Assembly (NCBI GenBank): GCA_027487515.1 | Contig: JAIYDL010000016.1 | Location: forward strand, 372,001-436,000 | Source of the DNA: Pseudomonadota bacterium | Lineage (GTDB): Bacteria; Bdellovibrionota; Bacteriovoracia; Bacteriovoracales; Bacteriovoracaceae | Reading direction: 5' to 3' | DNA: 64,000 nt | Part shown: piece after piece, positions 6,361-48,109 of the stretch | How positions within the stretch are numbered: position 1 is the stretch's first letter | Layout of the letters: the number at the start of each line of letters is the position of its first letter | Program-made: the position numbers and the translations under genes | The notes under the pieces: generated by a model | Told to the model about the DNA's origin: nothing | The model's input: only the letters and a program-made list of their open reading frames with translations | The model's database searches: none

Positions 6361-7362
6361 TTAGTATTTAAGGCAGATGGCGCCGGCGGTGAGCCCTGCT
6401 CCGAAAGCCGCCATGAGAAGGTTGTCACCGCGCTTGATCCGACCGTCTCGAATCGCCTCATCTAGCGCCACAGGGACAGAAGCCGAGGAAGTGTTCGCGA
6501 ACCGATCGACGTTCACGATGACCTTCGAGGCCGGAATGTTGAAGCGAGTTCCGACTGCCTCAATGATCCGAAGGTTCGCCTGGTGCGGAATGAACCAGTC
6601 GATCTGATCGAGGGTCAGCTCGGCTTCCCGGGCCACTCGCTCAGCGTGGGCGGCCATGGTGGTGACCGCAGCTTTGAAGATCTGTTGCCCGTTCATGGTC
6701 ATCCACTGTTCGTTCTTGTCGAGCACCTCGTGCGTGATCCGCTTATTGGCCCCGCCGGCCATGAGTGTGAGGTGGTCTTTCTTCGTTGAGTCACAGGTCA
6801 GGATTGAGCTGTAGATGCGAGAGTCTTCGTTCTCAGAGGCGCGGCCCAGAACAGCGGCACCGCAGGCGTCACCGAAGAGGATGCAGGTGTTGCGGTCGTC
6901 CCAGTTGTTAAAGGAGGAGAGCATCTCTGAGCCCACGATCAGGATGTGCTTGTAGAGGCCCGTCTTGATCATCGCATCTGCCATCGGAACAAGGTAGATC
7001 CAGCCGGAGCAGGCCGCATTGACGTCGAGCGTGGGGCAGAGATTGGTGATGCCAAGCTTCTCTTGGAGGACGGACGCGGTGTTGGGCATGCTCTGGTCTG
7101 GCATCGTCGCGGAGACGAGGATGAGGTCAATGTCGTTGGGAGTTAGGTTCGCTGCTTCGATCGCCTTGAGGGACGCTTCTTTCGCCATGCCACTCGGATT
7201 TTCTCCCTTAGAGAGGTCTGCAACTCGGCGCTGATGGATTCCCGTTCTCTCGACGATCCAATCGTGGCTCGTGTCGATGCGCTCAGAGAGGTCTTTATTC
7301 GTGACGATGCGTTCTGGGAGGTAGCTTCCCGTACCTAGGATTTTCGTGTTGAAGAGTCTCAT
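6361..7362 (-). CDS. fabH: 3-oxoacyl-[acyl carrier protein] synthase III
   Basis: FabH starts fatty acid synthesis by condensing an acyl-CoA primer with malonyl-ACP. The 333-residue protein has the catalytic Cys118 in VNAACSGWIY, the His in WFIPHQANLRI and the Asn in RFANTSSASVP. The start at 7362 is supported by AGGTGGG a few bases upstream and gives the usual N-terminus (ILGTGSYLPERIV). A strong terminator separates it from rpmF, so fabH probably has its own promoter in the roughly 50-base gap. The plsX gene usually found between rpmF and fabH is absent here. Confidence 0.97.
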   Translation of the reverse strand: MRLFNTKILGTGSYLPERIVTNKDLSERIDTSHDWIVERTGIHQRRVADLSKGENPSGMAKEASLKAIEAANLTPNDIDLILVSATMPDQSMPNTASVLQEKLGITNLCPTLDVNAACSGWIYLVPMADAMIKTGLYKHILIVGSEMLSSFNNWDDRNTCILFGDACGAAVLGRASENEDSRIYSSILTCDSTKKDHLTLMAGGANKRITHEVLDKNEQWMTMNGQQIFKAAVTTMAAHAERVAREAELTLDQIDWFIPHQANLRIIEAVGTRFNIPASKVIVNVDRFANTSSASVPVALDEAIRDGRIKRGDNLLMAAFGAGLTAGAICLKY

Positions 7363-7414
7363 TTGATCCCACCTTTTACGTCCCCACTTATCCGTAAGTC
7401 GAGACCGTTGATCC

Positions 7415-7446
7415 AAAAAAAAAGCCTTCTTTCGAAGGCTTTTTTT
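7415..7446 (-). terminator. Intrinsic terminator after rpmF
   Basis: A seven-base stem (agccttc / gaaggct) with a four-base loop is flanked on both sides by A/T runs. Read on the minus strand it is followed by nine Ts (As at 7415-7423), a classical intrinsic terminator just downstream of rpmF. The other strand also has a T run, so it could work in both directions. Confidence 0.9.
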
Positions 7447-7466
7447 GTAAGAAATTTCTTTCTAAG

Positions 7467-7679
7467 TTAAGCTTGGGCCGGAGCTTCGTCAGCTTTAACT
7501 TTGACTTCGAAGACTTGCTTACCCTTGTAGTGACCGCAAGACGGGCAAACGTGGTGAGGGAGAACAGAGTCACCGCAGTTCGGGCAGGCCTGAGGAAATT
7601 TTCTGTAAAGTTTATGATGTTGACCAGCTCGTCTTAAACCTTTCCGGGAAACGCTGGTTCTCTTCTTAGGTACTGCCAC
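7467..7679 (-). CDS. rpmF: 50S ribosomal protein L32
   Basis: The 70-residue basic protein begins AVPKKRTSVSRKGLRRA, the signature of L32, and has a zinc-ribbon with two cysteine pairs (CPNC and CPSC). L32 is a small component of the large ribosomal subunit. A GTG start is used, with GGAGG six bases upstream. It follows yceD, the usual partner, and is closed by an intrinsic terminator. The C-terminus carries a short acidic/alanine tail. Confidence 0.97.
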   Translation of the reverse strand: MAVPKKRTSVSRKGLRRAGQHHKLYRKFPQACPNCGDSVLPHHVCPSCGHYKGKQVFEVKVKADEAPAQA

Positions 7680-7798
7680 AAATGCCTCCGATAATATTAA
7701 CTCTTATACTTAATTGAGCTTTTTAAAAATGAGGTTCTATTTCTAATACAACTTCCACCCGTTGCCAAGCCCAATCTTGACCGGTTTGTCGGTGCCCT

Positions 7799-8341
7799 TT
7801 AGGCCAGATCCTCTGAATCCACGCCTTCCAACTTAGCATCCGCGTCAAGAACAGGGTATTGGTTGTAATTGAGGAAGATCTGTTCGTGGAGCATGTCTTG
7901 GAAATCGACCGTCCGCTTGGAATAAAAGTAGATCTCATAGACGTCATTCTCGACGTAGGTCTCATCGATTTCAGCAAATAATTCAGTACTTGCGAGTGCC
8001 TCGTCAACGAAGACAATCTTGAACGGCACATCGAGCTGAACAGTCATGGGCTTGAGCGTCCGGACGCACTCCGTAACGTAGTCGGCTTCGATCGTGCCTT
8101 TGACGAGGAGAAATTCTCCCATGTCTGTTTTATTTTTCTTCTCCAGTTCGCCGGAGATAAAAATGGATGTGTCGTCGAGGTAAGCCTCTGGCGACTTCTC
8201 GGTTGCGTTCTCGTTCATCTCCAAAAGAAAGCTCCGGACCCAGTCCGTTTCTTGATCGAGCTCGAACGAGAAGGGGCTGTTTGCTGGGAGCTTGATCAGA
8301 TTGATCTTTGCGGCAACGTGCTTATTGTCTATCTTATTCAT
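7799..8341 (-). CDS. yceD: YceD family (DUF177) protein
   Basis: The 180-residue protein has the layout of DUF177, a family linked to 23S rRNA or ribosome assembly and nearly always placed before rpmF, as here. The segment TIEADYVTECVRTL matches the family's CxRCL region, but only the first cysteine remains; the second is replaced. The later acidic stretch and DMLHEQIFLNYNQYPV are also family-like. The start at 8341 gives MNKIDNKH. The role of the family is not fully established. Confidence 0.75.
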   Translation of the reverse strand: MNKIDNKHVAAKINLIKLPANSPFSFELDQETDWVRSFLLEMNENATEKSPEAYLDDTSIFISGELEKKNKTDMGEFLLVKGTIEADYVTECVRTLKPMTVQLDVPFKIVFVDEALASTELFAEIDETYVENDVYEIYFYSKRTVDFQDMLHEQIFLNYNQYPVLDADAKLEGVDSEDLA

Positions 8342-8403
8342 GGAGGGCCTTTTTTTTATTGCCCTAGCTTCTATAAAAATATTCGGACAAAGAGAAGGGC
8401 CAC

Positions 8404-8937
8404 ATGGCTAAATGCGAAAAAATTTTGATAGCTGGCTTCTCTGGCGCTGGGAAAACGAGCCTCGTGCGTGCGCTTCAGGCGAGCGCTCCCGAGGGGTGGG
8501 AGCTTTTCGACGACCTCGATCAGCTCGTTTTCAAAACCGCTGGGAAGGGGTACGCCCGGTTAGCCGACCTCATCGAGGGAATCGGCTGGGAGCGCTTCCG
8601 CGTCCTCGAACGGCAGCAGTTCGAGGCGTGGCTCAAGGAAGAAGAAAAGGGCGTGCTGGCCCTCGGTGGCGGAACGCTCTCCCCGTTGCTTTGGGAGCTC
8701 TACCGGCGTGGTCCGCGGTTACGCTTCGTCCACCTGGACGTGCCCTTCGCTGTAGCGTGGGAGCGACTCCGTTTAGATGTCGAGACGCCGCGGCCGCTGG
8801 TGGCCCGCGGAGCGGTGGAGCTCGAGAAGATCTACGACGAGCGCCGACGGCTCTTCCTCGAGCTTCCCGTTACCCTCGACGGTGTTCTTCCCTCCGAAGA
8901 CCTCGCTCGGGAGCTGTGGAAGTCCCTCGGAAGCTAG
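8404..8937 (+). CDS. Shikimate-kinase-like P-loop kinase
   Basis: The 177-residue protein has a P-loop GFSGAGKTS (11-19), an acidic DDLDQ segment in the place of the shikimate kinase Asp pair, a GWERFRVLERQQFE segment resembling the family's FR..E motif, the LALGGGTL glycine motif, and PRPLVARG resembling the RPLL lid motif. Shikimate kinase phosphorylates shikimate in aromatic amino acid synthesis. Length fits AroK (about 170). No other aro gene is nearby, so a related small kinase cannot be excluded. It is divergent from yceD, and an AGAAGGG precedes the ATG. Confidence 0.65.
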   Translation: MAKCEKILIAGFSGAGKTSLVRALQASAPEGWELFDDLDQLVFKTAGKGYARLADLIEGIGWERFRVLERQQFEAWLKEEEKGVLALGGGTLSPLLWELYRRGPRLRFVHLDVPFAVAWERLRLDVETPRPLVARGAVELEKIYDERRRLFLELPVTLDGVLPSEDLARELWKSLGS

Positions 8938-9069
8938 CCCCACGGGGCCCCGACGGCGTCGTTCGCTCCGGAGTAAAAAGCTCGGGGTAATTCGCCCGGC
9001 GCGATCCTTTACATGGTTTCTCGTCCTACGATACCATGGATCAATGCTTTCATCTGGTCGGGAGGACCT

Positions 9070-10506
9070 ATGCAAACCACGCTTCAAGGATCTGATTTAA
9101 CAGTGGCAATTCTCATGGATGACCTCGCCTGTGCGAAGGACATCGCGGGGGCCCTCCGGCAGCAGAACATCCTCGCGCACTTGTACCAGAGCCTCGATGA
9201 ATTCTGGGTCGCCAGCACGGTTCAGACTCCCGACCTTGCGATCGTCGATGTGACGAAGATGAGCCAAGGCAGCATCCAGTTTCGAAGCCACCCGAAAGTC
9301 GTCGATAAATCTCTGTGCTATGCTTTTTTCTCGAAAGAATCGACGAAGATTCTCCTGCAGTCGACGCTGAGCCTTTCCCCCGCTGGTTACCTCCACCACG
9401 ACTCCTCTTTGACGGCCCAGGTTCTGGCGCTGGTGGGACAACGGACTCGTGAGCTGCGGCAGGACCGGGAACGGAGTGACCTCGAGGTCCGGGTCCAGCG
9501 GCTCCAGGCCAGATCCCAGAGACTCCTCTCGGAGCGGTCGGGAGCAGAAGAGTTCCGGGCCAACTTTGAATTCATCCGGACCCTCTGCGCGGAGATCGAA
9601 GCCGACTCCACCAGACAGGACTTCACTCATTCCTTGATCGCAAAACTTGAGAAGTGGGAGGCGATCGACGGATACGGCATCCTCGAACTCAACCCCTCCG
9701 GCCAGAAACTCATAGGCCCCGACCTGGTTCGGAAGAAGTACCATCCGTTTCCATCGCTCTGGCTTGGCCAGGCGAACCTCCAAGGCATCGAACCATTCGC
9801 CCAGGAGATGGGCACGCAGGTTGCCCGGGACCTCTTTGAGACCGGGCCCGTCCTCGTGAAGATTTCTTCCGGTGCGACGAATCCGGACTTCCTCCTCTAC
9901 GTCTCCTTTCACGAAGAACGAATGGCGGATTTCCCCTGGGACGTCCTCGAGGCGATGCTCAGTTCGAGCTTACGGAAACTCCGACTCTACCAGCAGCTCC
10001 CGCACTACGCGTCGCATTTCTTACCCATGTGGGAGGCCCTCGACGACATGGACCGGATGCAGAAAGCGAGCTTCGACGCTGACGTGCGGATCGTTTCCCT
10101 GAGCCTCATTCCTCTCACCGACGTGGCCAAGCGCCGGCCGATGAACAAGTTCTTTTGGTCTTCGTTTTTCAACGACTTTTTCATCCAGCTTTCTGGGCGC
10201 CTTCAGAAGAGCACGAAGCTCTCTCTCTTCGGCCCATGGCACGTGATGTTTTTCATCCCGAAAGAGTCGGTGGAAGCGGAGACCCAGATGCTCCAGTCCT
10301 TCGTGAAGCAGTTCAGTTACTGGAAGTTCTTCGAAGACACCGCCCAGGTTCTCTCGGAAGAGATGCTACCGGTTCTGAAGCTGGTGCCGCCGTCGTCGGC
10401 CCATTACCTTCGGCTTTTCGAGAAGGAGTTCAGCGAACTCTCTTTGAGAGACGAGGAAAAGCGGCTCCTCATCAACCGGCCTAGTTCCAAAAGAATCACT
10501 GTCTGA
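9070..10506 (+). CDS. Pseudo-receiver domain protein of unknown function
   Basis: The 478-residue protein starts at the ATG at 9070, preceded by GGGAGG. Residues about 10-120 resemble a response-regulator receiver: an acidic pair at Asp17/Asp18, a potential phosphoacceptor Asp60 in DLAIVDVTK, and a CYAFFS strand. The conserved Lys expected near GYLHHD is absent, so this may be a non-phosphorylated receiver. A predicted coiled coil follows at about 130-165, then a long region I do not recognise. It overlaps alr by one base and could be co-transcribed with it, though a functional link is not evident. No output domain such as HTH or GGDEF is visible. Confidence 0.55.
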   Translation: MQTTLQGSDLTVAILMDDLACAKDIAGALRQQNILAHLYQSLDEFWVASTVQTPDLAIVDVTKMSQGSIQFRSHPKVVDKSLCYAFFSKESTKILLQSTLSLSPAGYLHHDSSLTAQVLALVGQRTRELRQDRERSDLEVRVQRLQARSQRLLSERSGAEEFRANFEFIRTLCAEIEADSTRQDFTHSLIAKLEKWEAIDGYGILELNPSGQKLIGPDLVRKKYHPFPSLWLGQANLQGIEPFAQEMGTQVARDLFETGPVLVKISSGATNPDFLLYVSFHEERMADFPWDVLEAMLSSSLRKLRLYQQLPHYASHFLPMWEALDDMDRMQKASFDADVRIVSLSLIPLTDVAKRRPMNKFFWSSFFNDFFIQLSGRLQKSTKLSLFGPWHVMFFIPKESVEAETQMLQSFVKQFSYWKFFEDTAQVLSEEMLPVLKLVPPSSAHYLRLFEKEFSELSLRDEEKRLLINRPSSKRITV

Positions 10507-40363: not shown

Positions 40364-41838
40364 CCTTAATCGAAGTATTTCCTCTCACCGCCCTCGGTCT
40401 TACTGAGTACGTCAATCTCCTTCCGGTTCTCATGCTGGCCGGTGGTGGACTGTTGAGCCTTCTGGCCGGAACCCACAAAGAGCACGGTCATTTCCGTGCC
40501 TTCGTGGTCGCGTTCGCGGCCGTCGTCATGGCGCTGTTTCAAGGCAACGCTGTTCTTTTTTCGAGCGACGTTAGCATCTTGGGAGAAACCTTAATCTTTG
40601 GCCCGTTCACGAAGACCCTTTCGATCATGCTGCTTTCTTTTTCTGCGATCGCCGTGGTCTTGACCTACGGTCAAGATAAAAAAGAGGGGCTCCTGGCGGA
40701 GATCTACGGACTCATTCTTTTTGCGACCGCAGGCATGGTTCTGATGGTCAGTACCCAGCACCTCCTTTTCATGTTCATCTCTCTCGAGATCATGTCTCTA
40801 GCGATCTACGTGCTCGTCGCCATGCGCCGGACTAGCTCGTTTTCTGCAGAGGCCGGACTCAAGTACTTCATCCTTGGTGGCCTCGCCTCGGCCCTCTTCC
40901 TCTATGGCTCCTCGCTCGTCTTCGGAGCCACCGGGACCTTTGAACTCGGAAAGATTTCCACCTTCCTGAGCGCACACCCGAACCCATCCTTTGTTTACTA
41001 CCTTGGTCTCGGCTTAGTCCTTACCGCGATGCTGTTCAAAGTCGGAGCTGTTCCGTTTCACAGCTGGCTTCCGGATGTGTACCAAGGAGCGGCCACTAAC
41101 GTCACTGGTTTCATGGGAGCAGCGGTCAAGTTCACGGCCTTCATGGCGCTGGCCAAGATCTGTCAGCACATGGTCTTCGTTGATAACGTGGCTAAGCTCG
41201 AGTGGTTCCAGAGCTACATTTGGCTCGTCGCTGCGGCGTCGATGATCTACGGAAACTTCGTGGCCATTTCTCAGAACGAAATCAAGCGGATGCTTTCGTT
41301 TTCAACGATTGCCCACACCGGGTACCTGTTGCTCGGGCTCTACGCCATGAACCTTGGCTCGACTTCACCCCAAGACCTGATCCTTTACCTGTTCTTCTAC
41401 GCCCTTTCTAACCTGGGTGCCTTCGCAGTGATCTCTCAGTTCGAAGAACGAAACCAGAAGGACTTAACCTTGGACCAGATCGCGGGGCTCGGGATCCGGC
41501 ATCCATTCTTAGGCGCTCTCTTTACTCTTTTCCTCCTCTCCATGGCGGGCATCCCCCTGACGTCTGGCTTCATCGGGAAGTACGGTCTCTTTAGTTCTGC
41601 CGTTACTGCGGGTGAGGTTCCGCTAGTGGTCATCGCGGTCCTGACTTCCGTCGTTTCCGTCTACTACTACCTCCGGGTGATCGTTTACATGTTCATGAAG
41701 GAGAGCACCGGAGAGGCGGTAACCTACCAGGCCTTGAAAGGTGCGGGCCTTGCGGCCATGGTCTCCGCAGCGGCGACCCTGCAATTTGGTCTGTTCCCCC
41801 GAGCGGTTATCTCGTTCGTTAAAATGATTTCGAAATAA
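40360..41838 (+). CDS. nuoN: NADH-quinone oxidoreductase subunit N
   Basis: The 492-residue antiporter-like subunit has about 14 membrane segments with FISLEIMSLAIYVLVAM, KVGAVPFHSWLPDVYQGA and FSTIAHTGYLLLG. It is the last of the fourteen nuo genes. The next gene begins eight bases later, so the transcript probably continues to the terminator at 42116. Confidence 0.95.
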   Translation: MTLIEVFPLTALGLTEYVNLLPVLMLAGGGLLSLLAGTHKEHGHFRAFVVAFAAVVMALFQGNAVLFSSDVSILGETLIFGPFTKTLSIMLLSFSAIAVVLTYGQDKKEGLLAEIYGLILFATAGMVLMVSTQHLLFMFISLEIMSLAIYVLVAMRRTSSFSAEAGLKYFILGGLASALFLYGSSLVFGATGTFELGKISTFLSAHPNPSFVYYLGLGLVLTAMLFKVGAVPFHSWLPDVYQGAATNVTGFMGAAVKFTAFMALAKICQHMVFVDNVAKLEWFQSYIWLVAAASMIYGNFVAISQNEIKRMLSFSTIAHTGYLLLGLYAMNLGSTSPQDLILYLFFYALSNLGAFAVISQFEERNQKDLTLDQIAGLGIRHPFLGALFTLFLLSMAGIPLTSGFIGKYGLFSSAVTAGEVPLVVIAVLTSVVSVYYYLRVIVYMFMKESTGEAVTYQALKGAGLAAMVSAAATLQFGLFPRAVISFVKMISK

Positions 41839-42241: not shown

Positions 42242-42328
42242 TGGTGCCCAAGACGAGACTCGAACTCGTACGGGCTGTTAACCCGAGGGATTTTAAATCC
42301 CTTGTGTCTACCATTCCACCACCCGGGC
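42242..42328 (-). tRNA. tRNA-Leu (anticodon UAA)
   Basis: On the minus strand an 87-base cloverleaf can be drawn. The acceptor stem is GCCCGGG with CTTGGGC. The anticodon arm is AGGGA-TTTAAAA-TCCCT with anticodon UAA. A long variable arm (CGGGTTAACAGCCCG) marks class II leucine tRNA, the T arm has GTTCGAGTC, and the CCA end is encoded (42242-42244). It reads the UUA codon. It lies antisense to the flanking plus-strand genes, directly before the complex I-like gene group. Confidence 0.95.
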
Positions 42329-42354: not shown

Positions 42355-43833
42355 ATGTTCTTGAGATTATGTCAATTGAAAAGCCTTCCAGCGCTCTTGG
42401 TGCTTGCCCTGTGCACTTCTTCCTGTTCGTTTCGGGACGATCGCTACTCCAAAGAGCTTCTGACGACGTACCCCAACCGATGGTTTAGTTCAAATCTCCG
42501 GCATTCGATCACCGATCATGACGGTGATCCCGTGCCCCACTTGTTCTTTGATCCGACCCCTGACTTTCAAGGCCAAGAAGTCAACGTGCTCATCCTCACT
42601 CCTCGGAAATCGCCGTATGGCTACGGACTTGATCTCCAGTCGGGCCAACGGTACTACTCTCACTCTTATTGTTCCCAGAGTGACGTCTGGGGGAAATACG
42701 GGGGAGGCCTAAACCGGCCCCCGTTCTCCGTAGGCTATATCCCGCGTGTCCTGGATCAGCTCGGAGAGCCACATAAAGTGATCCTCTGGTCCCGGCGCAA
42801 CTTTCAGTCCACCGCCGGCACGAACTTTCAGCGGGCCCGTCTCCTCGGCGCGTTCGTCGAGCAAACCTGTCCTGAAGGAAACTGCCTCGGCAAAAGTAAC
42901 TGGCTCTCTCGACTCGTCTTCGTGGCCCTCGACGCGGACGATCCGACCTACGATGCTGTGAAGACACTGGCGGAGTTCCGTCGGGAGGTGGATTGGGAAA
43001 CGGCCCACGCCTTCCTCGGCAATCTGGAGGGACGGAATGTCGTCGGAGGTACCGGGTTTCCGCACACCCGGATCGGAGAGTTGATTGAGTTTACCGAGGC
43101 CTTTGACTATTTCAAGAAGCGCTCTATTCTCATGACGGAAACCGAGCTGAAGCGGATCCAAAGAGGCTGTCACCGGCTCTACGACTCACTCTGGGAAGAG
43201 GTCGGGAAGGAGCGTCCGGAGGATAGGGCCGCGAAGACCACCGAGGAGCTCCGGAAAAAACTCGAACTCCGGCAGGAACTTAAACTGAAAGGCGTCGCCG
43301 TTGGATTCTCTGCTCGCTTCCAGCGCTTCGCCAAGAAGTACGGAAAAGAGCTCGGGACCTGCGAGAAGTTCGTCTACCACGGGAACGTGATCCGCGATCC
43401 AGAGTCCTTCTGGTTCCTGAGCTACGTCGGGATCTTCTTTCGGCTTCACCGAGAGGGGTACTACTTTGACTGCCGCTCTAAGGGTTGGCTCAAGAACTTG
43501 ATCAACGACCAAGGAACCCCCGTTTACCAGCTCCAAGAGGGTGTCGAATCTTGTCGCGACGAAGACATTGATCGCGCGATGGAGTACCTTCCGAACTTCC
43601 TCACGACCCTTAAGAATGAGCGAGATTTTTACCGGTTCATCGACTACGATAACCATACTCGAGGGACGCACCAGAAACTCTACTCTTGGGTGAGGGTCAA
43701 GGCGCCCCGCTTAGGTTGCGAGAGGGATCCGAACGCCGAACCCCTGCGGACCCTCCGTGTGTTTCCGGAAGACGCCGGCTGGAAACCGCGCAAAGTTCGA
43801 GACATCTCGGACAAAATGAAGATCATCTTGTGA
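42355..43833 (+). CDS. Secreted or lipoprotein-like protein of unknown function, first gene of the complex I-like cluster
   Basis: The 492-residue protein starts with a basic stretch, a hydrophobic core and a possible lipobox (TSSC, Cys24), so it is probably exported and may be lipidated. The rest is charged and rich in Tyr and Trp with about ten cysteines, and contains an Arg/Glu-rich helical segment near 285-310. I recognise no domain. Its TGA stop overlaps the GTG start of the NuoB-like gene by four bases (GTGA), which strongly suggests that it belongs to the same operon. No strong ribosome site precedes the ATG. Confidence 0.6.
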   Translation: MFLRLCQLKSLPALLVLALCTSSCSFRDDRYSKELLTTYPNRWFSSNLRHSITDHDGDPVPHLFFDPTPDFQGQEVNVLILTPRKSPYGYGLDLQSGQRYYSHSYCSQSDVWGKYGGGLNRPPFSVGYIPRVLDQLGEPHKVILWSRRNFQSTAGTNFQRARLLGAFVEQTCPEGNCLGKSNWLSRLVFVALDADDPTYDAVKTLAEFRREVDWETAHAFLGNLEGRNVVGGTGFPHTRIGELIEFTEAFDYFKKRSILMTETELKRIQRGCHRLYDSLWEEVGKERPEDRAAKTTEELRKKLELRQELKLKGVAVGFSARFQRFAKKYGKELGTCEKFVYHGNVIRDPESFWFLSYVGIFFRLHREGYYFDCRSKGWLKNLINDQGTPVYQLQEGVESCRDEDIDRAMEYLPNFLTTLKNERDFYRFIDYDNHTRGTHQKLYSWVRVKAPRLGCERDPNAEPLRTLRVFPEDAGWKPRKVRDISDKMKIIL

Positions 43834-44225
43834 AGAAAGAAACCCAACAACCGCTTCGACTTTTTTGCTTCTCGCACCTCTTGCTCGCAACGGAGCTTCC
43901 GGCCTTGACCGGGGATAAGTACGGGAGCGCACTCCCGTTCCCGTGGGAACTCACAACGGAGTACACGGCGGCAGACGTAGTCCTTTGGGATGGAGTGATC
44001 ACGCCTCGGAATCGCCCCATGGCAGCGCGGATCCTCGAGGACGTCCGGGGACCGAAGGTTCTCCTCCTCATCGGGGAGTCTGCGACACTCTTTCGCCAGA
44101 ACCCCCTGGTCGAGTTGGTTGATCCGCAGGCCTTCAACGCGGTAGAACTCGCCGGATGGAATGTGCTCCCGGAGGATATTCTTGAGGCAATCGCAAAGTG
44201 TCACAAACGGGTCAACCGTGTTTAG
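43830..44225 (+). CDS. NuoB-like protein without the N2 cluster ligands
   Basis: From a GTG at 43830 the 131-residue protein aligns with NuoB over the conserved core: AADVVLWDGVITPRNRPMAA matches the genuine NuoB segment [27 protein letters not shown] matches [11 protein letters not shown], and AGWNVLPEDILEAI matches [14 protein letters not shown]. All four cysteines that hold cluster N2 in NuoB are absent: the tandem pair is gone, the third is Ser84 and the fourth is Trp110. Only Cys13 and Cys124 remain. It therefore keeps the fold but cannot bind N2. It overlaps the preceding gene (4 bases) and the NuoCD-like gene (8 bases). Confidence 0.7.
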   Translation: MKKETQQPLRLFCFSHLLLATELPALTGDKYGSALPFPWELTTEYTAADVVLWDGVITPRNRPMAARILEDVRGPKVLLLIGESATLFRQNPLVELVDPQAFNAVELAGWNVLPEDILEAIAKCHKRVNRV

Positions 44226-45843
44226 CTGGAAGGAATTCGAAAAGACGAAGTCGATTCTCTCGCACCTCGGTGGAGCGCGCTACCAGGACGCGTGGGGCCA
44301 GCACCACCTCCGGCTCAGGCCCTCCGAGCTTCTCGAATGGGCCGAGTTTGTGAAAGAAGATCTGGGCTTTTTCACTCTGGACGAAATCGCTGCTCATGCG
44401 TCGGCAACTGGGGCAACGGAGCTCGTGTATAATTTCTTGAGCATGGGGACTCACCAGCGCCTCAATTTTCACATCGACGCGACGGCCGGAGAAATCATCC
44501 CGAGTCTCTCTGGCTTTTTCTCCAACGCCGATTGGTATGAGCGTGAAGAAGCCGAGATGCACGCCCTCTCCTTCGATCGAAGGTCTCGCGCACTCCTGCT
44601 CCCGGAGGGCCAGGACAACTTTCCGCTCCGGTCCTCGGCCGCGACCATGGTGTGGCCATCGGAGGTGACCCCGGGCCCTCCGGGACTAAGGTACAATCCG
44701 AATAAGTCCGAAGCCCCTTACCCAGAGGAGAGTTACCGCTGGAAGACTTTTGATCTCTTCTCGCCGGTCACCGCTGGAAATTTTGAATGGCAGGTCTGCT
44801 TTGACCCACAACGAGTCGTGACCTCTAGCGCGCGCATCGGTTTTCACCATCAAGGTCTGGAGCGGCTCTTTGCGGAAAAGGACATCTTTCAGATCCTTCA
44901 GCTCGTTGACCGAGTCAACCTCGGCGCTGCTCCCAGCTACTCCATCGCCTGGGCTAAAATCATTGAAGACGTGTTCCGCATCCGGATTCCCGAGAGGGCC
45001 CAGGCGATTCGTATCCTCATGCTTGAGCTCGCCCGAGTTGCGGATCACCTCGGTGTGATGGCCGCCACCTGCGAAGCGCTCGGATTGCAGGAAGCACGGC
45101 TCCTGATCAATGCGCGCGAGAAAATCGTCGAGCTCTTCGAAAAATCCTGCGGTTCCCGTCACGGGCAAGGGACCGCGGTCATTGGGGGAGTGAAGGATGA
45201 TCTTCCGGCCGGATGGGCCGTGGAATGCCAGGCCGCGGTTGAGGTCCTCGGCCGAAACCTTCGGATCATTCAGAACTCGCTCCTCGGCCAGTCTCAGTTT
45301 CGGAGCAACCTTGCTGGGAATCCCGTCGACGCTCAGAGTATCCTCCAGTGGGGCGTCACGGGCCCGGCGATGCGGGCCGCGGGCCTGAACTTTGATCTTC
45401 GAAAATCTCAACCTTTTTACTTCTACCGCGACATCGACTTTGACATTCCCGTGGGGATCCATGGTGCTGCGTTTGATCGCTACCTCATCCGGTACGAGGA
45501 AATCGTTCAAAGCTTCCGGATCATCACTCAGGTCATCGATAACCTTCCTCTCGGAGGGGTCATCGGAGAAGAGTTCTGTAAGAACGGCCTGGAGCTGCGG
45601 GCCTATTTTGCGACGCTTGAGGTTCCGGAGGAATGGCACTACGCTACGCTAGAGGCGCCGAGCGGTGAGGCGGGGTACCTGCTTAAACTCGAGTCTGCTG
45701 TGAAACCTCTGCGACTGAAGCTTAAGACCCCGGGCTTCACGGTCGCCCAGTCACTTGACATTTTTGTTCGGGGATTAACAGAAGACCAGTTAAGACCCGC
45801 GCTCATAAGCCTTGGTCTCTCCCGATTTGAAATGGATAGGTAA
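44218..45843 (+). CDS. Fused NuoC-NuoD-like protein without quinone-site residues
   Basis: The 541-residue protein has a NuoC-like part (about 1-145; FFSNADWYEREEAEMHALSF) joined to a NuoD-like part (about 170-541; GFHHQGLERLFAEKD, GVTGPAMRAAGLNFDLR, YRDIDFDIPVG, ending FEMDR). The two quinone-binding residues of NuoD are replaced: the His equivalent is Ala186 and the Tyr equivalent is Leu235. There is no CxxC pair for nickel at either end, so it is not a [NiFe] hydrogenase subunit. The fusion resembles HycE and E. coli NuoCD. A GTG at 44218 is used; the longer upstream frame lies in the previous gene. Confidence 0.75.
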   Translation: MFSWKEFEKTKSILSHLGGARYQDAWGQHHLRLRPSELLEWAEFVKEDLGFFTLDEIAAHASATGATELVYNFLSMGTHQRLNFHIDATAGEIIPSLSGFFSNADWYEREEAEMHALSFDRRSRALLLPEGQDNFPLRSSAATMVWPSEVTPGPPGLRYNPNKSEAPYPEESYRWKTFDLFSPVTAGNFEWQVCFDPQRVVTSSARIGFHHQGLERLFAEKDIFQILQLVDRVNLGAAPSYSIAWAKIIEDVFRIRIPERAQAIRILMLELARVADHLGVMAATCEALGLQEARLLINAREKIVELFEKSCGSRHGQGTAVIGGVKDDLPAGWAVECQAAVEVLGRNLRIIQNSLLGQSQFRSNLAGNPVDAQSILQWGVTGPAMRAAGLNFDLRKSQPFYFYRDIDFDIPVGIHGAAFDRYLIRYEEIVQSFRIITQVIDNLPLGGVIGEEFCKNGLELRAYFATLEVPEEWHYATLEAPSGEAGYLLKLESAVKPLRLKLKTPGFTVAQSLDIFVRGLTEDQLRPALISLGLSRFEMDR

Positions 45844-45845
45844 TC

Positions 45846-46223
45846 ATGATCTTGGGCCGAAATTTCTACAACAAGATCTCCTGGCTGCGCTCTCTTTGGA
45901 ACTCGCGGCAATTACGTAAGCTCCAGGGATCGAAGGTCTTCCGGGCATTTAAGCTGCACCGTACTGAACTCCCTGAGAAAATATATTTCTATTCTCCTCG
46001 GTTAAAGAGGATTCCTCGGTTCACAGGTAACCTCGAGCTTCTGACAAAGTGGAAAGACTCAAAAATGTGTGAGACACTTTGTCCGACCCAAGCGATCACA
46101 GTGACTGCAAACGCGTTCACTATCGACGATCGTGGGTGCATTGCCTGTGGTGTTTGTGTGGACGTGGCCCCTCCGGGAATCCTTTTCGTCCCCTCGGAAA
46201 TTGCTGGTGCGCACCGGTCTTGA
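45846..46223 (+). CDS. NuoI-like ferredoxin with ligands for one [4Fe-4S] cluster
   Basis: The 125-residue protein has a NuoI/ferredoxin-type C-terminal half. The first motif keeps only Cys75 and Cys79 (CETLCP); the two cysteines before them are missing. The second motif keeps Cys98, Cys101 and Cys104 (CIACGVC), but the fourth position is Ala108. Cys98/101/104 plus Cys79 can hold one [4Fe-4S] cluster; the other cluster cannot form. A basic N-terminal half might contact the membrane. It begins two bases after the NuoCD-like gene and is followed 15 bases later by the desaturase. Confidence 0.7.
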   Translation: MILGRNFYNKISWLRSLWNSRQLRKLQGSKVFRAFKLHRTELPEKIYFYSPRLKRIPRFTGNLELLTKWKDSKMCETLCPTQAITVTANAFTIDDRGCIACGVCVDVAPPGILFVPSEIAGAHRS

Positions 46224-46238
46224 TAAGGATTGTTATTC

Positions 46239-47315
46239 ATGGTTAAGCTTCTGTCAGTATTCTCTGTCTTGTACGTCCTGGCCTACTACTTCATCCGAAG
46301 TGTTTTTGGTGTGAATGGCCTCGTTGGTGACTCACTGGCGACCCATCCCGTGCTTTTTTTGAGCATCTACGTCGTCGTGATCTCGCACCTCACGATCACG
46401 GCCATGAGTCTGTCATTTCACCGGTACCATACGCATAAGGGAGTCATCATCAACCGGTGGGTCGACCTTCCCCTGCAGACTTGGCTCTGGATGGTCACCT
46501 CACTTTCCAAGGTCGATTGGGTCGCAGTCCACATCTGGCACCACGCGCACTCCGATCTCGAGCGGGATCCCCACAGCCCACTCCACAAAGGAATCTGGCA
46601 CGCGCTGTTCTTCGGGGTCTTCGATTACACGCGAGCGAAGTCCTGGCCTGAGGTCATGAAAATCAAGAAAACCATCCCTATCAACAAGCTCGAGGCCTTC
46701 TTCCATCAGAACTCGTTCACGGGACCGGTGATCCTGACCTGCATCACTCTCGTACTCTTCGGCCCGGTCTGGGGCGCTCTCGTGTCAGTCCTCAATTTCC
46801 TCGTCTCACCGATCTTCGCCATCGGCGGGGTGAATGCCCTCGCTCACTGGTGGGGCTACCGGAATCACGTGACTACGGACAACAGCCGGAACCTCGGATT
46901 CCTTCTTCCCTTGAACTTCATCATCTGCGGTGAACTTGACCACAATAATCACCACGCGCACATGAAGTCTTGCTCTTTCCGCCACCGCTGGTTCGAGTTC
47001 GACGTTGGATTTTTCTACCTCAAAATTCTGAGCTGGCTGAATCTTGCGGACCTTCGCACTGTCTACTCCCCGGCCACACTCCGGCAGGAGTTTGCCCAGA
47101 AAGTGGTCGAGCTCATCGAGAAAGACTACCGGTTTAAAAAGCGTTTCGAGGAGCTGGCAGCAGAACTCAACGTGAACTACCAGGACCTCAAGAGCCGCAT
47201 CGAAGCCTCGTACTCTGGGGAGAAGGTGAAGCTTGAGAAATCGGTCCGCGAATTCATGGCGGAGGTCCGTCGGACATACCGGGCCAACCAGCGCTTGAAA
47301 CTCAGTTACGTTTAG
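46239..47315 (+). CDS. Membrane fatty acid (acyl-CoA/acyl-lipid) desaturase
   Basis: The 358-residue membrane protein has the three histidine boxes of the di-iron desaturases: HRYHTH (61-66), HIWHHAH (98-104) and DHNNHHAH (about 236-243), between four hydrophobic segments. It introduces double bonds into acyl chains using oxygen and electrons from a redox partner. About 90 extra residues at the C-terminus form a charged helical, coiled-coil-like tail. The ATG at 46239 has AAGG ten bases upstream. It is the last gene before a terminator and follows the single-cluster ferredoxin-like gene, a plausible electron donor; that is inference. Confidence 0.85.
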   Translation: MVKLLSVFSVLYVLAYYFIRSVFGVNGLVGDSLATHPVLFLSIYVVVISHLTITAMSLSFHRYHTHKGVIINRWVDLPLQTWLWMVTSLSKVDWVAVHIWHHAHSDLERDPHSPLHKGIWHALFFGVFDYTRAKSWPEVMKIKKTIPINKLEAFFHQNSFTGPVILTCITLVLFGPVWGALVSVLNFLVSPIFAIGGVNALAHWWGYRNHVTTDNSRNLGFLLPLNFIICGELDHNNHHAHMKSCSFRHRWFEFDVGFFYLKILSWLNLADLRTVYSPATLRQEFAQKVVELIEKDYRFKKRFEELAAELNVNYQDLKSRIEASYSGEKVKLEKSVREFMAEVRRTYRANQRLKLSYV

Positions 47316-47328
47316 GAACCTCTGATGA

Positions 47329-47354
47329 AGGCCGCAAGTTGCGGCCTTTTTTTT
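47329..47354 (+). terminator. Intrinsic terminator of the complex I-like/desaturase operon
   Basis: ggccgca and tgcggcc pair around a three-base loop, extended by flanking A-T pairs and followed by eight Ts (47347-47354). It lies 14 bases behind the desaturase stop codon. Confidence 0.9.
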
Positions 47355-47405: not shown

Positions 47406-48109
47406 CTAAGAAGAGCTCGCGAGCCACAGGCCTCTTCTGAGACTCCATTTCGTGAACCAGCCGTCCACGGGAGGAACGAGTTTCCCACCGAGGCTTTCGA
47501 CGTAGCGGTAGCACTCACGGCGTTCCTTCTTCTCTACAGACGAAGATTCTGAGATCAACCGGAGAACACTCTTTCCCTCTTGGGTGAGGAGATTTATTTT
47601 TGCTCCCTCTTTCACCAGGAACCGGATGATTTCGAGATTGCATTTTCTTGCAGCGTAGTGGATCGGCCGCATTCTTACTCGATCACCGAGAACTGCAGAT
47701 TCTTCATTGATCTTGTCGACGATGAGGTTCGTCTTTACCGCCTCGAGGTCTTCTGCGGTTATGGCCATGAGAAACTGGTAAAACTTTTTCCCATGTTGAA
47801 GCGGAAGCAGGAGATCGGCTCTCTCTGGAAGATCATCGAGAAGCGTCTGATCCGTTGACCAGTTAAAGATAAGTGGATAGAAAAATCATGGACCGGCATT
47901 CCTGAACGAAGAAGGAGTCTCGCGATCTCAATCTGATTTCCGTGAATCGCGGCCTCGAGGAGATAGGCGACTTCACTGTCCCAGTGGATGCCATTCTCGA
48001 TCGCTGCTTTAATGACGTCGACGCGACCCTCGAACGCCGCGAGCCCAAGCTCGGAAGTTTCGATCTCTACACGCGAATGGATTTTGGATACGAAATACTG
48101 GTGCGGCAT
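47406..48109 (-). pseudogene. Ankyrin-repeat protein with a frameshift
   Basis: Two overlapping frames together encode a protein of about 234 residues. The N-terminal part (48109 down to about 47885) has ankyrin-like helices (AAIHGNQIEIARLLLRSGMPV), and the C-terminal part has RPIHYAARKCNLEIIRFLV. The break lies at five Ts (As at 47881-47885 on the plus strand): one more T would join ...VHDF to FYPLIFNWSTDQ, and this second frame is open well upstream of its ATG at 47768. It is a recent mutation or a read error. GAGGAG precedes the start. It follows aat by 21 bases and is probably the last gene of that operon. Confidence 0.65.

Follow-up and report, generated by a model that had tools for sequence, protein, structure and literature searches.

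A five-gene operon of the Bacteriovoracaceae as a probable late stage of a dismantled respiratory complex I

The window, i.e. the whole 64,000-nucleotide stretch analysed (contig JAIYDL010000016.1, positions 372,001 to 436,000), carries on its plus strand an operon of five tightly spaced genes (42355-47315): a lipoprotein gene, homologues of nuoB, nuoCD and nuoI (here B', CD' and I') and a gene for a membrane fatty acid desaturase. On balance, we read this operon as a respiratory complex I at a late point of its dismantling, kept for a non-respiratory role. The comparison comprises 98 genomes, 60 of which represent the family (f1) and 26 the genus (g1) of the window genome (G000); close homologues occur in nine named database records with 52-81% identity.

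The lipoprotein gene (42355-43833) overlaps B' (43830-44225, 131 amino acids (aa), GTG start) by four bases, and B' overlaps CD' (44218-45843, 541 aa, GTG start), a fused NuoC-NuoD homologue, by eight. Gaps of two and 15 bases separate CD' from I' (45846-46223, 125 aa) and I' from the desaturase gene (46239-47315). An earlier note on this DNA (the original prediction) had described the same operon, and the recomputed positions of the open reading frames (ORFs) agree with all its coordinates, overlaps and gaps; the spacing also bears out its single transcription unit. The order B'-CD'-I'-desaturase is kept in 20 genomes of the genus, the window's own included, and in 19 of these the lipoprotein gene stands ahead of B' (internally shortened in G001); it was not found in G020, where the remaining order is present. 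The co-occurrence of the genes, which the original prediction had suggested checking, is thereby established: 19 genus genomes possess all five in order, and the composition is conserved.

CD' matches the profiles Complex1_49kDa (1.9e-49) and Complex1_30kDa (1.1e-13), and the NiFe hydrogenase profile at 0.0086 only. CxxC motifs of the NiFe-ligand type are absent from its sequence, which ends in ...FEMDR, and an identity as a group 4 [NiFe] hydrogenase or formate hydrogenlyase was rejected on these grounds. B' yields a sub-threshold sequence match (Oxidored_q6, E 0.097); an iterative profile seeded with it reaches full-length NuoB proteins. In its AlphaFold2 model (mean predicted local distance difference test (pLDDT) 75.9, predicted template modelling score 0.73) the first 36 PDB matches all belong to complex I or its relatives (formate hydrogenlyase, MBS), with a best E of 1.7e-4 and a TM-score of about 0.6, the matched chains being taken as the NuoB-type subunit from their labels. 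Because profile and model both lead there, B' is assigned to the NuoB kind, with a predicted fold of NuoB type. I' matches ferredoxin models, and homologues of NuoB, NuoC/D and NuoI stand together in one operon, as in respiratory complex I. B', CD' and I' descend from NuoB, NuoCD and NuoI; the profile matches of CD', the profile and model of B' and the ferredoxin match of I' agree with the complex I-derived Q-module originally proposed.

When B' is aligned with the NuoB that the window's full operon encodes, its N2 cysteine positions read L, L, S and W, and a cysteine occurs at any of the four in none of the 24 genus rows. In NuoD, a His-His pair and a Tyr of the quinone site serve in quinone binding; both are replaced in the aligned CD', the Tyr column being read from the DRLNY stretch. 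I' keeps C79, C98, C101 and C104, the ligand set of one 4Fe-4S cluster, with an additional stray C75; the other cluster has lost its first two ligands and its last (now A108). The retained cysteines are present in 22 of 23 genus sequences, the exception (L009) being frameshifted. NuoE, NuoF and NuoG are absent from the window operon. The loss of redox ligands first read from the three Nuo-like proteins is thus confirmed for all four N2 cysteines, the quinone-site His and Tyr and one ferredoxin cluster.

CD' was detected in 25 of the 26 genus genomes, in 24 at 1.3e-124 or better and in G007 as a piece at a contig end; it was not found in G018. Its reading frame is open in those 24 genomes and in the G007 piece. 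A sequencing artefact was rejected in view of this recurrence. In the one unsaturated pair (L036 and L037, dS 0.18-0.19), B has a ratio of nonsynonymous to synonymous substitution (dN/dS) of 0.074 and CD one of 0.071, and two more distant pairs with partly saturated dS give 0.06-0.11 for B, CD and I where computable. The full nuo operon shows 0.007-0.028 in seven of eight genes tested; dS of nuoD is saturated and provides no ratio. The reduced genes evolve faster than those of the full operon, yet under clear constraint, with B', CD' and the one-cluster I' under purifying selection in the genus. Of 102 conserved NuoD columns, 43 survive in 70% or more of 24 reduced proteins. The worst kept region is NuoD 1-40, including the quinone loop (mean identity 0.25), and the best kept is 161-280 (0.77-0.89), with many residues invariant in all 24. 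Such a pattern is as expected from selection for a folded, assembled Q-module without its chemistry.

Erosion continues inside the genus: I' is frameshifted in G011 (L037), and the lipoprotein gene of G001 has a large internal deletion (L017/L039; L039 202-723).

That the operon merely undergoes neutral decay, as a redundant complex I with no retained function, is very improbable. Such decay would fit the many losses, the continuing damage to I' (L009/L037) and to the lipoprotein (L017/L039) and the loss of the operon in G018, but the dN/dS values of B', CD' and I' contradict it in its strict form, and the open CD' frames and the invariant NuoD core residues oppose it as well.

Outside this family, members of the phylum (Bdellovibrionota) have the corresponding operon as B-CD-E-F-G-I (L064-L074, L083; B is not labelled in L073, L074 and L083). 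All four N2 cysteines are present in 9/9 of the rows with B, and both quinone histidines in 12/12. No membrane genes adjoin this peripheral operon; a membrane operon A-H-J-K-L-M-N lies elsewhere in all six genomes looked at (L084-L089), and with this second locus the first impression of a free-standing peripheral arm was rejected. The sequences show this operon to be one half, the peripheral one (B-CD-E-F-G-I), of a split complex I, and the window operon to descend from it. Two genomes, G072 and G081, reported as 99% and 90% complete, combine the peripheral operon with no NuoH match, possibly a soluble peripheral arm or an assembly gap.

A CD tree of 77 rows (L008 and L028 were dropped as duplicates of L081 and L080, here as in the ligand alignments) places the window protein in a 45-row set of reduced family proteins, inside which long branches make its placement unsure. 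The reduced set joins the intact proteins of the family and then the peripheral-arm proteins of the phylum. NuoD of the full operon lies apart from the window protein, as does NuoD of a second split (type-2) complex in the window genome, whose membrane arm is found in L090 and whose B-C-D-I genes are found in L091. The module, described in the original prediction as lacking membrane antiporter subunits, has not always been alone: its line goes back to the peripheral-arm operon of a complex I encoded at two loci. The type-2 complex itself occupies L090 8823-16499 (G000:C3), with a NuoL of 737 aa, and L091 (G000:C2), where B-C-D-I lack E, F and G; the same B-C-D-I module occurs in L101, L109, L128, L129 and L202. 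A further complex I variant of the family is the operon A-B-CD-H-I-J-K-L-M-N without E, F and G in L082 (G044).

Within the family, many intermediates link the phylum's peripheral operon to the window's. All four N2 cysteines are present in 12 of 21 family rows outside the genus, at least one is lost in eight, and one row is cut. The fullest operon is lipoprotein-B-CD-E-F-G-I (L046, L047), followed by CD-133 aa ORF-F-G-I (L057), CD-F-426 aa ORF-I (L050), CD-G-I (L060) and CD-I (L044, L048, L053, L054, L055, L058, L061, L062, L063, L075). In L045, L052 and L056, CD is accompanied by an I remnant of 103-104 aa with two CxxC pairs and no ferredoxin motif. These remnants (L045 6298-6609, L052 7938-8249, L056 7744-8058) retain the N-terminal MIL...Y segment, and the CxxC pairs that replace the ferredoxin domain look zinc-ribbon or rubredoxin-like by eye. 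Lipoprotein-CD occurs in L120, L122, L123 and L124, and the series ends with a lipoprotein gene that has no Nuo genes beside it (L118, L125, L121; in L119 the contig breaks off). Three loci stand outside this order: L059 (G050) has B-CD without a recognised lipoprotein or I, L216 (G036) a CD of 456 aa apart from the lipoprotein, and L217 (G026, 7098-9950) a lipoprotein, B and CD that are all barely recognisable and were missed by the family-wide lipoprotein search.

Mapped onto an RpoB tree, these states require at least eight changes for N2, five for the B gene, three for E+F+G and three for the quinone site; since regains are allowed in this count, the true losses are probably more numerous. 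The tree had no match from G004, G055, G018, G003, G054 and G026, and the counts exclude G045. Where no B could be recognised, N2 was coded as lost, as it was in G041, which has three of the four cysteines; G051 was scored as bearing G from a 426 aa ORF in its place, unlabelled by the Nuo search, and G034 as bearing B from a 131 aa ORF in the place of B that no profile recognises. The family has repeatedly dismantled its NADH module, quinone site, proton-path charges, N2 and clusters. Homologues with intact ligands in the same operon of relatives had been named in the original prediction as a sign of decay or artefact; other family genera do possess them, but purifying selection and wide retention oppose simple decay or an artefact.

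The membrane half of this split complex can be followed at a slot that follows nuoN of the type-2 arm, or mfd in genomes lacking that arm, and precedes a TPR protein, next to which serS follows in the window genome. This right-hand neighbour was found in 24 ORFs, several of them from overlapping stretches, and some stretches end before it. Few or none of the slot ORFs in other family genomes are labelled by the Nuo search; in size, order and number of transmembrane segments they correspond to A, H, J, K, L, M and N, and these "ghost" subunits were assigned by position. Tandem membrane operons occur in L094 (G039), L095/L200 (G055) and L201 (G052), the second of which is likely the partner of the peripheral operon. 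In profile-profile comparisons, 11 ghost loci match partly diverged arms for A (1.2e-6), H (1.1e-10), J (5.3e-7) and N (2.7e-7), and weakly for K (0.009); off-diagonal values are all 0.048 or worse. The partly diverged arms in turn match canonical subunits in 7/7 cases. In the partly diverged arms NuoL, M and N gradually lose their conserved charged residues, as N also does in the ghosts; mean column identity in the ghost NuoH alignment (A8) is 24%.

The slot was read in 36 family genomes, 26 of which hold an intact, ghost or partial arm, all 26 together with a CD gene. G036 is included in these after a search with the CD profile A9 found its CD gene; G050 was scored from two ORFs before a contig end and G029, a relative of the window genus, from four ORFs assigned by position (L190), both outside the profile comparison. 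G033 was omitted, its contig ending before the slot. The slot is empty in all six genomes read of the window genus (G000, G015, G003, G004 and G010 with CD, G018 without) and in G028, G031, G043 and G056, which lack CD; the A9 search confirmed that C and D are present only as separate genes in G018, G028, G031 and G056 and are missing from G043. Arm and CD therefore agree in 30/30 genomes outside the genus (both present in 26/26, neither in 4/4). Fisher's test without G036 gives 4.2e-5 outside the genus and 7.8e-4 with it, and ignores relatedness. By this evidence the window genus is the exception, keeping B'CD'I' without an arm. A NuoH profile (A6) detected only the full-operon and type-2 NuoH in G000 and G015, although this profile also misses the most diverged ghosts, so that a very diverged arm could lie elsewhere. 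The original prediction that no membrane subunits accompany the module is correct for the empty slot of the window genus, but the rest of the family has them at another locus, mostly as barely recognisable ghosts.

The first gene of the operon is a family marker, found in 52 of the 60 family genomes, with one weak match among the other 38. A lipobox cysteine occupies the aligned position in 26 of 27 members (L040 lacks its start); the window's own lipobox, TSSC, is atypical, and its designation as a lipoprotein, likewise made in the original prediction, rests on the aligned cysteine. The description "lipoprotein-like" can be refined to a domain (about residues 58-222) that resembles family I inorganic pyrophosphatase without the metal aspartates, followed by a long Cys- and Trp-containing C-terminal part. 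Among 50 Foldseek matches shown for the structural model, all are pyrophosphatases; with a mean pLDDT of 57.5, this result counts only jointly with the profile evidence. The lipoprotein profile obtained four sequence matches in the PDB, all weak (E 0.063-1.3) and all pyrophosphatases, and hhalign against two pyrophosphatases of family genomes gave 5.2e-8, compared with 0.013 or worse for five controls. Pfam PF00719 is reported in three of the 27 members (best 0.0085), and Pfam did not identify the window protein. Family I pyrophosphatases bind metal through an Asp-x-Asp-Pro-x-Asp motif; in the window, DGDPxD is changed to LGEPHK (residues 136-141), and Asp occurs at the three metal positions in 0, 2 and 0 of the 27 members, one of which is from G039, where the complex I operon is intact. 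The first gene thus probably encodes a pseudo-pyrophosphatase, already dead when the dismantling of complex I began. In L121 (1704-4328, G043), with an empty arm slot, the gene directly behind that of the lipoprotein is another, different member of the FA_desaturase family (PF00487, 6.1e-16), and no Nuo gene separates the two.

The last gene encodes a DesA-like desaturase (NF049918, 2e-59, 201.7 bits against a cut-off of 400) with three His boxes intact by eye; PF00487 is reported for its G034 homologue (L104) and not for the window protein or L035. It is present in 20 of 26 genus genomes, directly behind I' in all 20, and in the operons of G029 (L049) and G034 (L104). Elsewhere it is unlinked, from the reduced operon in G046 and G059 and also in G028, and at a cut-off of 1e-20 it was not found in G003, G004, G009 and G011. 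As these four keep B' and CD', desaturation cannot have been the original function of the module, contrary to a role considered in the original prediction. The desaturase is a late and dispensable addition, either an attached partner or a passenger. It is conceivable, if rather unlikely, that the module delivers electrons to the desaturase, a reductase docking on CD'/B' and the I' cluster passing electrons on to the di-iron enzyme. Membrane desaturases require an external electron donor, which fits such a relay, as do the constant position of the gene behind I' (in G034 behind an I with two complete cysteine motifs) and the cysteines conserved in 22/23 sequences, but the four genomes without the enzyme, the unlinked gene beside a motif-less I remnant in G046 and G059, and the absence of this desaturase from most module-bearing family genomes are difficult to reconcile with it.

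It is quite improbable that the operon serves the assembly, regulation or maturation of a genuine complex I in its own cell, whether that of nuoA-N or that of the type-2 genes. In favour of such a role, the window and G012 have the full nuo operon immediately upstream, there are also genes for a type-2 complex I, and B' and CD' could mimic assembly intermediates. G034 (96% complete), however, has the lipoprotein, the 131 aa ORF in the place of B, CD, I and the desaturase, but no recognisable NuoH and only a ghost arm in its slot, and G003 and G004 keep the module with type-2 NuoH only. G034 makes it unlikely that the module acts as a chaperone of some other complex I, and as a general role this was rejected.

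The favoured reading, a dismantled complex I retained for a non-respiratory role, starts from what the sequences show: the ancestor was a peripheral operon B-CD-E-F-G-I, and its membrane arm A-H-J-K-L-M-N was encoded elsewhere. In the family, the pseudo-pyrophosphatase lipoprotein gene stands at the 5' end, and the NADH module, the quinone site, the conserved membrane-arm charges and N2 have been lost in repeated steps. Outside the window genus, remnant and ghost arm go together; in the window genus the arm slot is empty and the desaturase gene has joined the 3' end. B'CD'I' may still form a compact Q-module, the NuoD core being the part kept, and may act as a protein-binding scaffold at the membrane; we infer both the physical complex and the scaffold activity from the sequences. 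The surviving I' cluster of the window genus may relay electrons, with the co-transcribed desaturase as the most obvious, unproven acceptor. Somewhat short of an even chance is given to an extension of this scheme to the family, namely a ghost complex I that would persist as a membrane assembly without NADH oxidation, quinone reduction or proton pumping, with a structural or signalling role alongside the dead-pyrophosphatase lipoprotein, and from which the window genus would have shed the arm, leaving a soluble Q-module beside the desaturase.

Several observations weigh against the favoured reading. Ghost L and M have no profile match with either partly diverged or canonical arms, and a direct comparison of ghosts with canonical arms singles out no subunits other than H (0.001) and N (1.9e-5). 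The co-retention of arm and CD amounts to two independent pairs on well-supported branches and three in all (sign test, p 0.5). The genus member G018 has lost both operon and arm. I' is frameshifted in G011 (L009/L037; L037 7618-7947) and the short I remnants of three other genera lack a ferredoxin motif; the family as a whole can therefore do without either cluster. The desaturase, finally, was not found or is unlinked in the genomes named above.

The surroundings of the operon agree with those first described. The full nuoA-N operon ends upstream at 41838, a tRNA-Leu gene follows on the minus strand (42242-42328), and behind the desaturase gene a terminator-like hairpin (47327-47349, plus strand) is a consensus match only, the overall scan having found five sites against a shuffle mean of 8.0, i.e. 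no excess. Inside I', codons 61-105 (46026-46160, plus strand) show raised synonymous conservation: the same-codon fraction across the genus is 0.53-0.63, against 0.3-0.5 for most other stretches, and near-invariant strings such as TGTGAGA occur. RNAalifold finds only a weak hairpin here (-3.23 kcal/mol over 21 sequences), and no structure is claimed. Two ORFs that appear ankyrin-like by eye (47406-48109, minus strand) lie between the operon and an aat-like gene, which the operon adjoins directly, with no ankyrin-like ORFs between, at several other loci of the family.

A literature search found no description of such an operon, in line with the original prediction, which knew of no described system of this composition. 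The closest item, a survey of complex I variants (PMC12361115), classifies genomes by how complete, clustered or fused their subunits are, and the word Bdellovibrio is absent from it. The parts of the operon belong to known families; their combination, and its retention after loss of function, are new as far as found. Complex I is usually viewed as whole or lost, and this family displays many stages in between, in which single genes and single ligands are missing while subunits are retained under selection after redox and pumping chemistry are gone. Subunit functions besides respiration, the order in which a large machine is disassembled and the rebirth of a respiratory complex as a scaffold thereby become accessible to test; an annotation as NuoB, NuoCD or NuoI in this family need not imply respiration.

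Among known systems, the module is most readily compared to the Q-module of complex I (NDH-1), with which it shares homologous subunits, the B-CD-I order, the NuoB fold predicted for B', the NuoD core and the ligands of one NuoI cluster. It differs in an operon without N2 ligands, quinone-site His and Tyr or E/F/G, in the empty arm slot of the window genus and in the joined lipoprotein and desaturase genes. Ehr complexes and group 4 [NiFe] hydrogenases are relatives of complex I; in Ehr the large subunit no longer has its catalytic metal ligands, and both keep the N2-type cluster and membrane subunits. A literature search aimed at Ehr yielded nothing on these complexes. Unlike in these, CD' is closer to NuoD than to NiFe hydrogenases (1.9e-49 against 0.0086), and a NuoC domain is fused to it. 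The N-terminal domain of the lipoprotein resembles family I soluble inorganic pyrophosphatase (PF00719) in predicted fold and profile match, and differs in its lipoprotein signal, its lost metal aspartates and its long C-terminal extension. The last protein is like DesA-type desaturases (NF049918, PF00487) in family match and His boxes, but falls below the curated cut-off and is encoded behind the remnant of a complex I.

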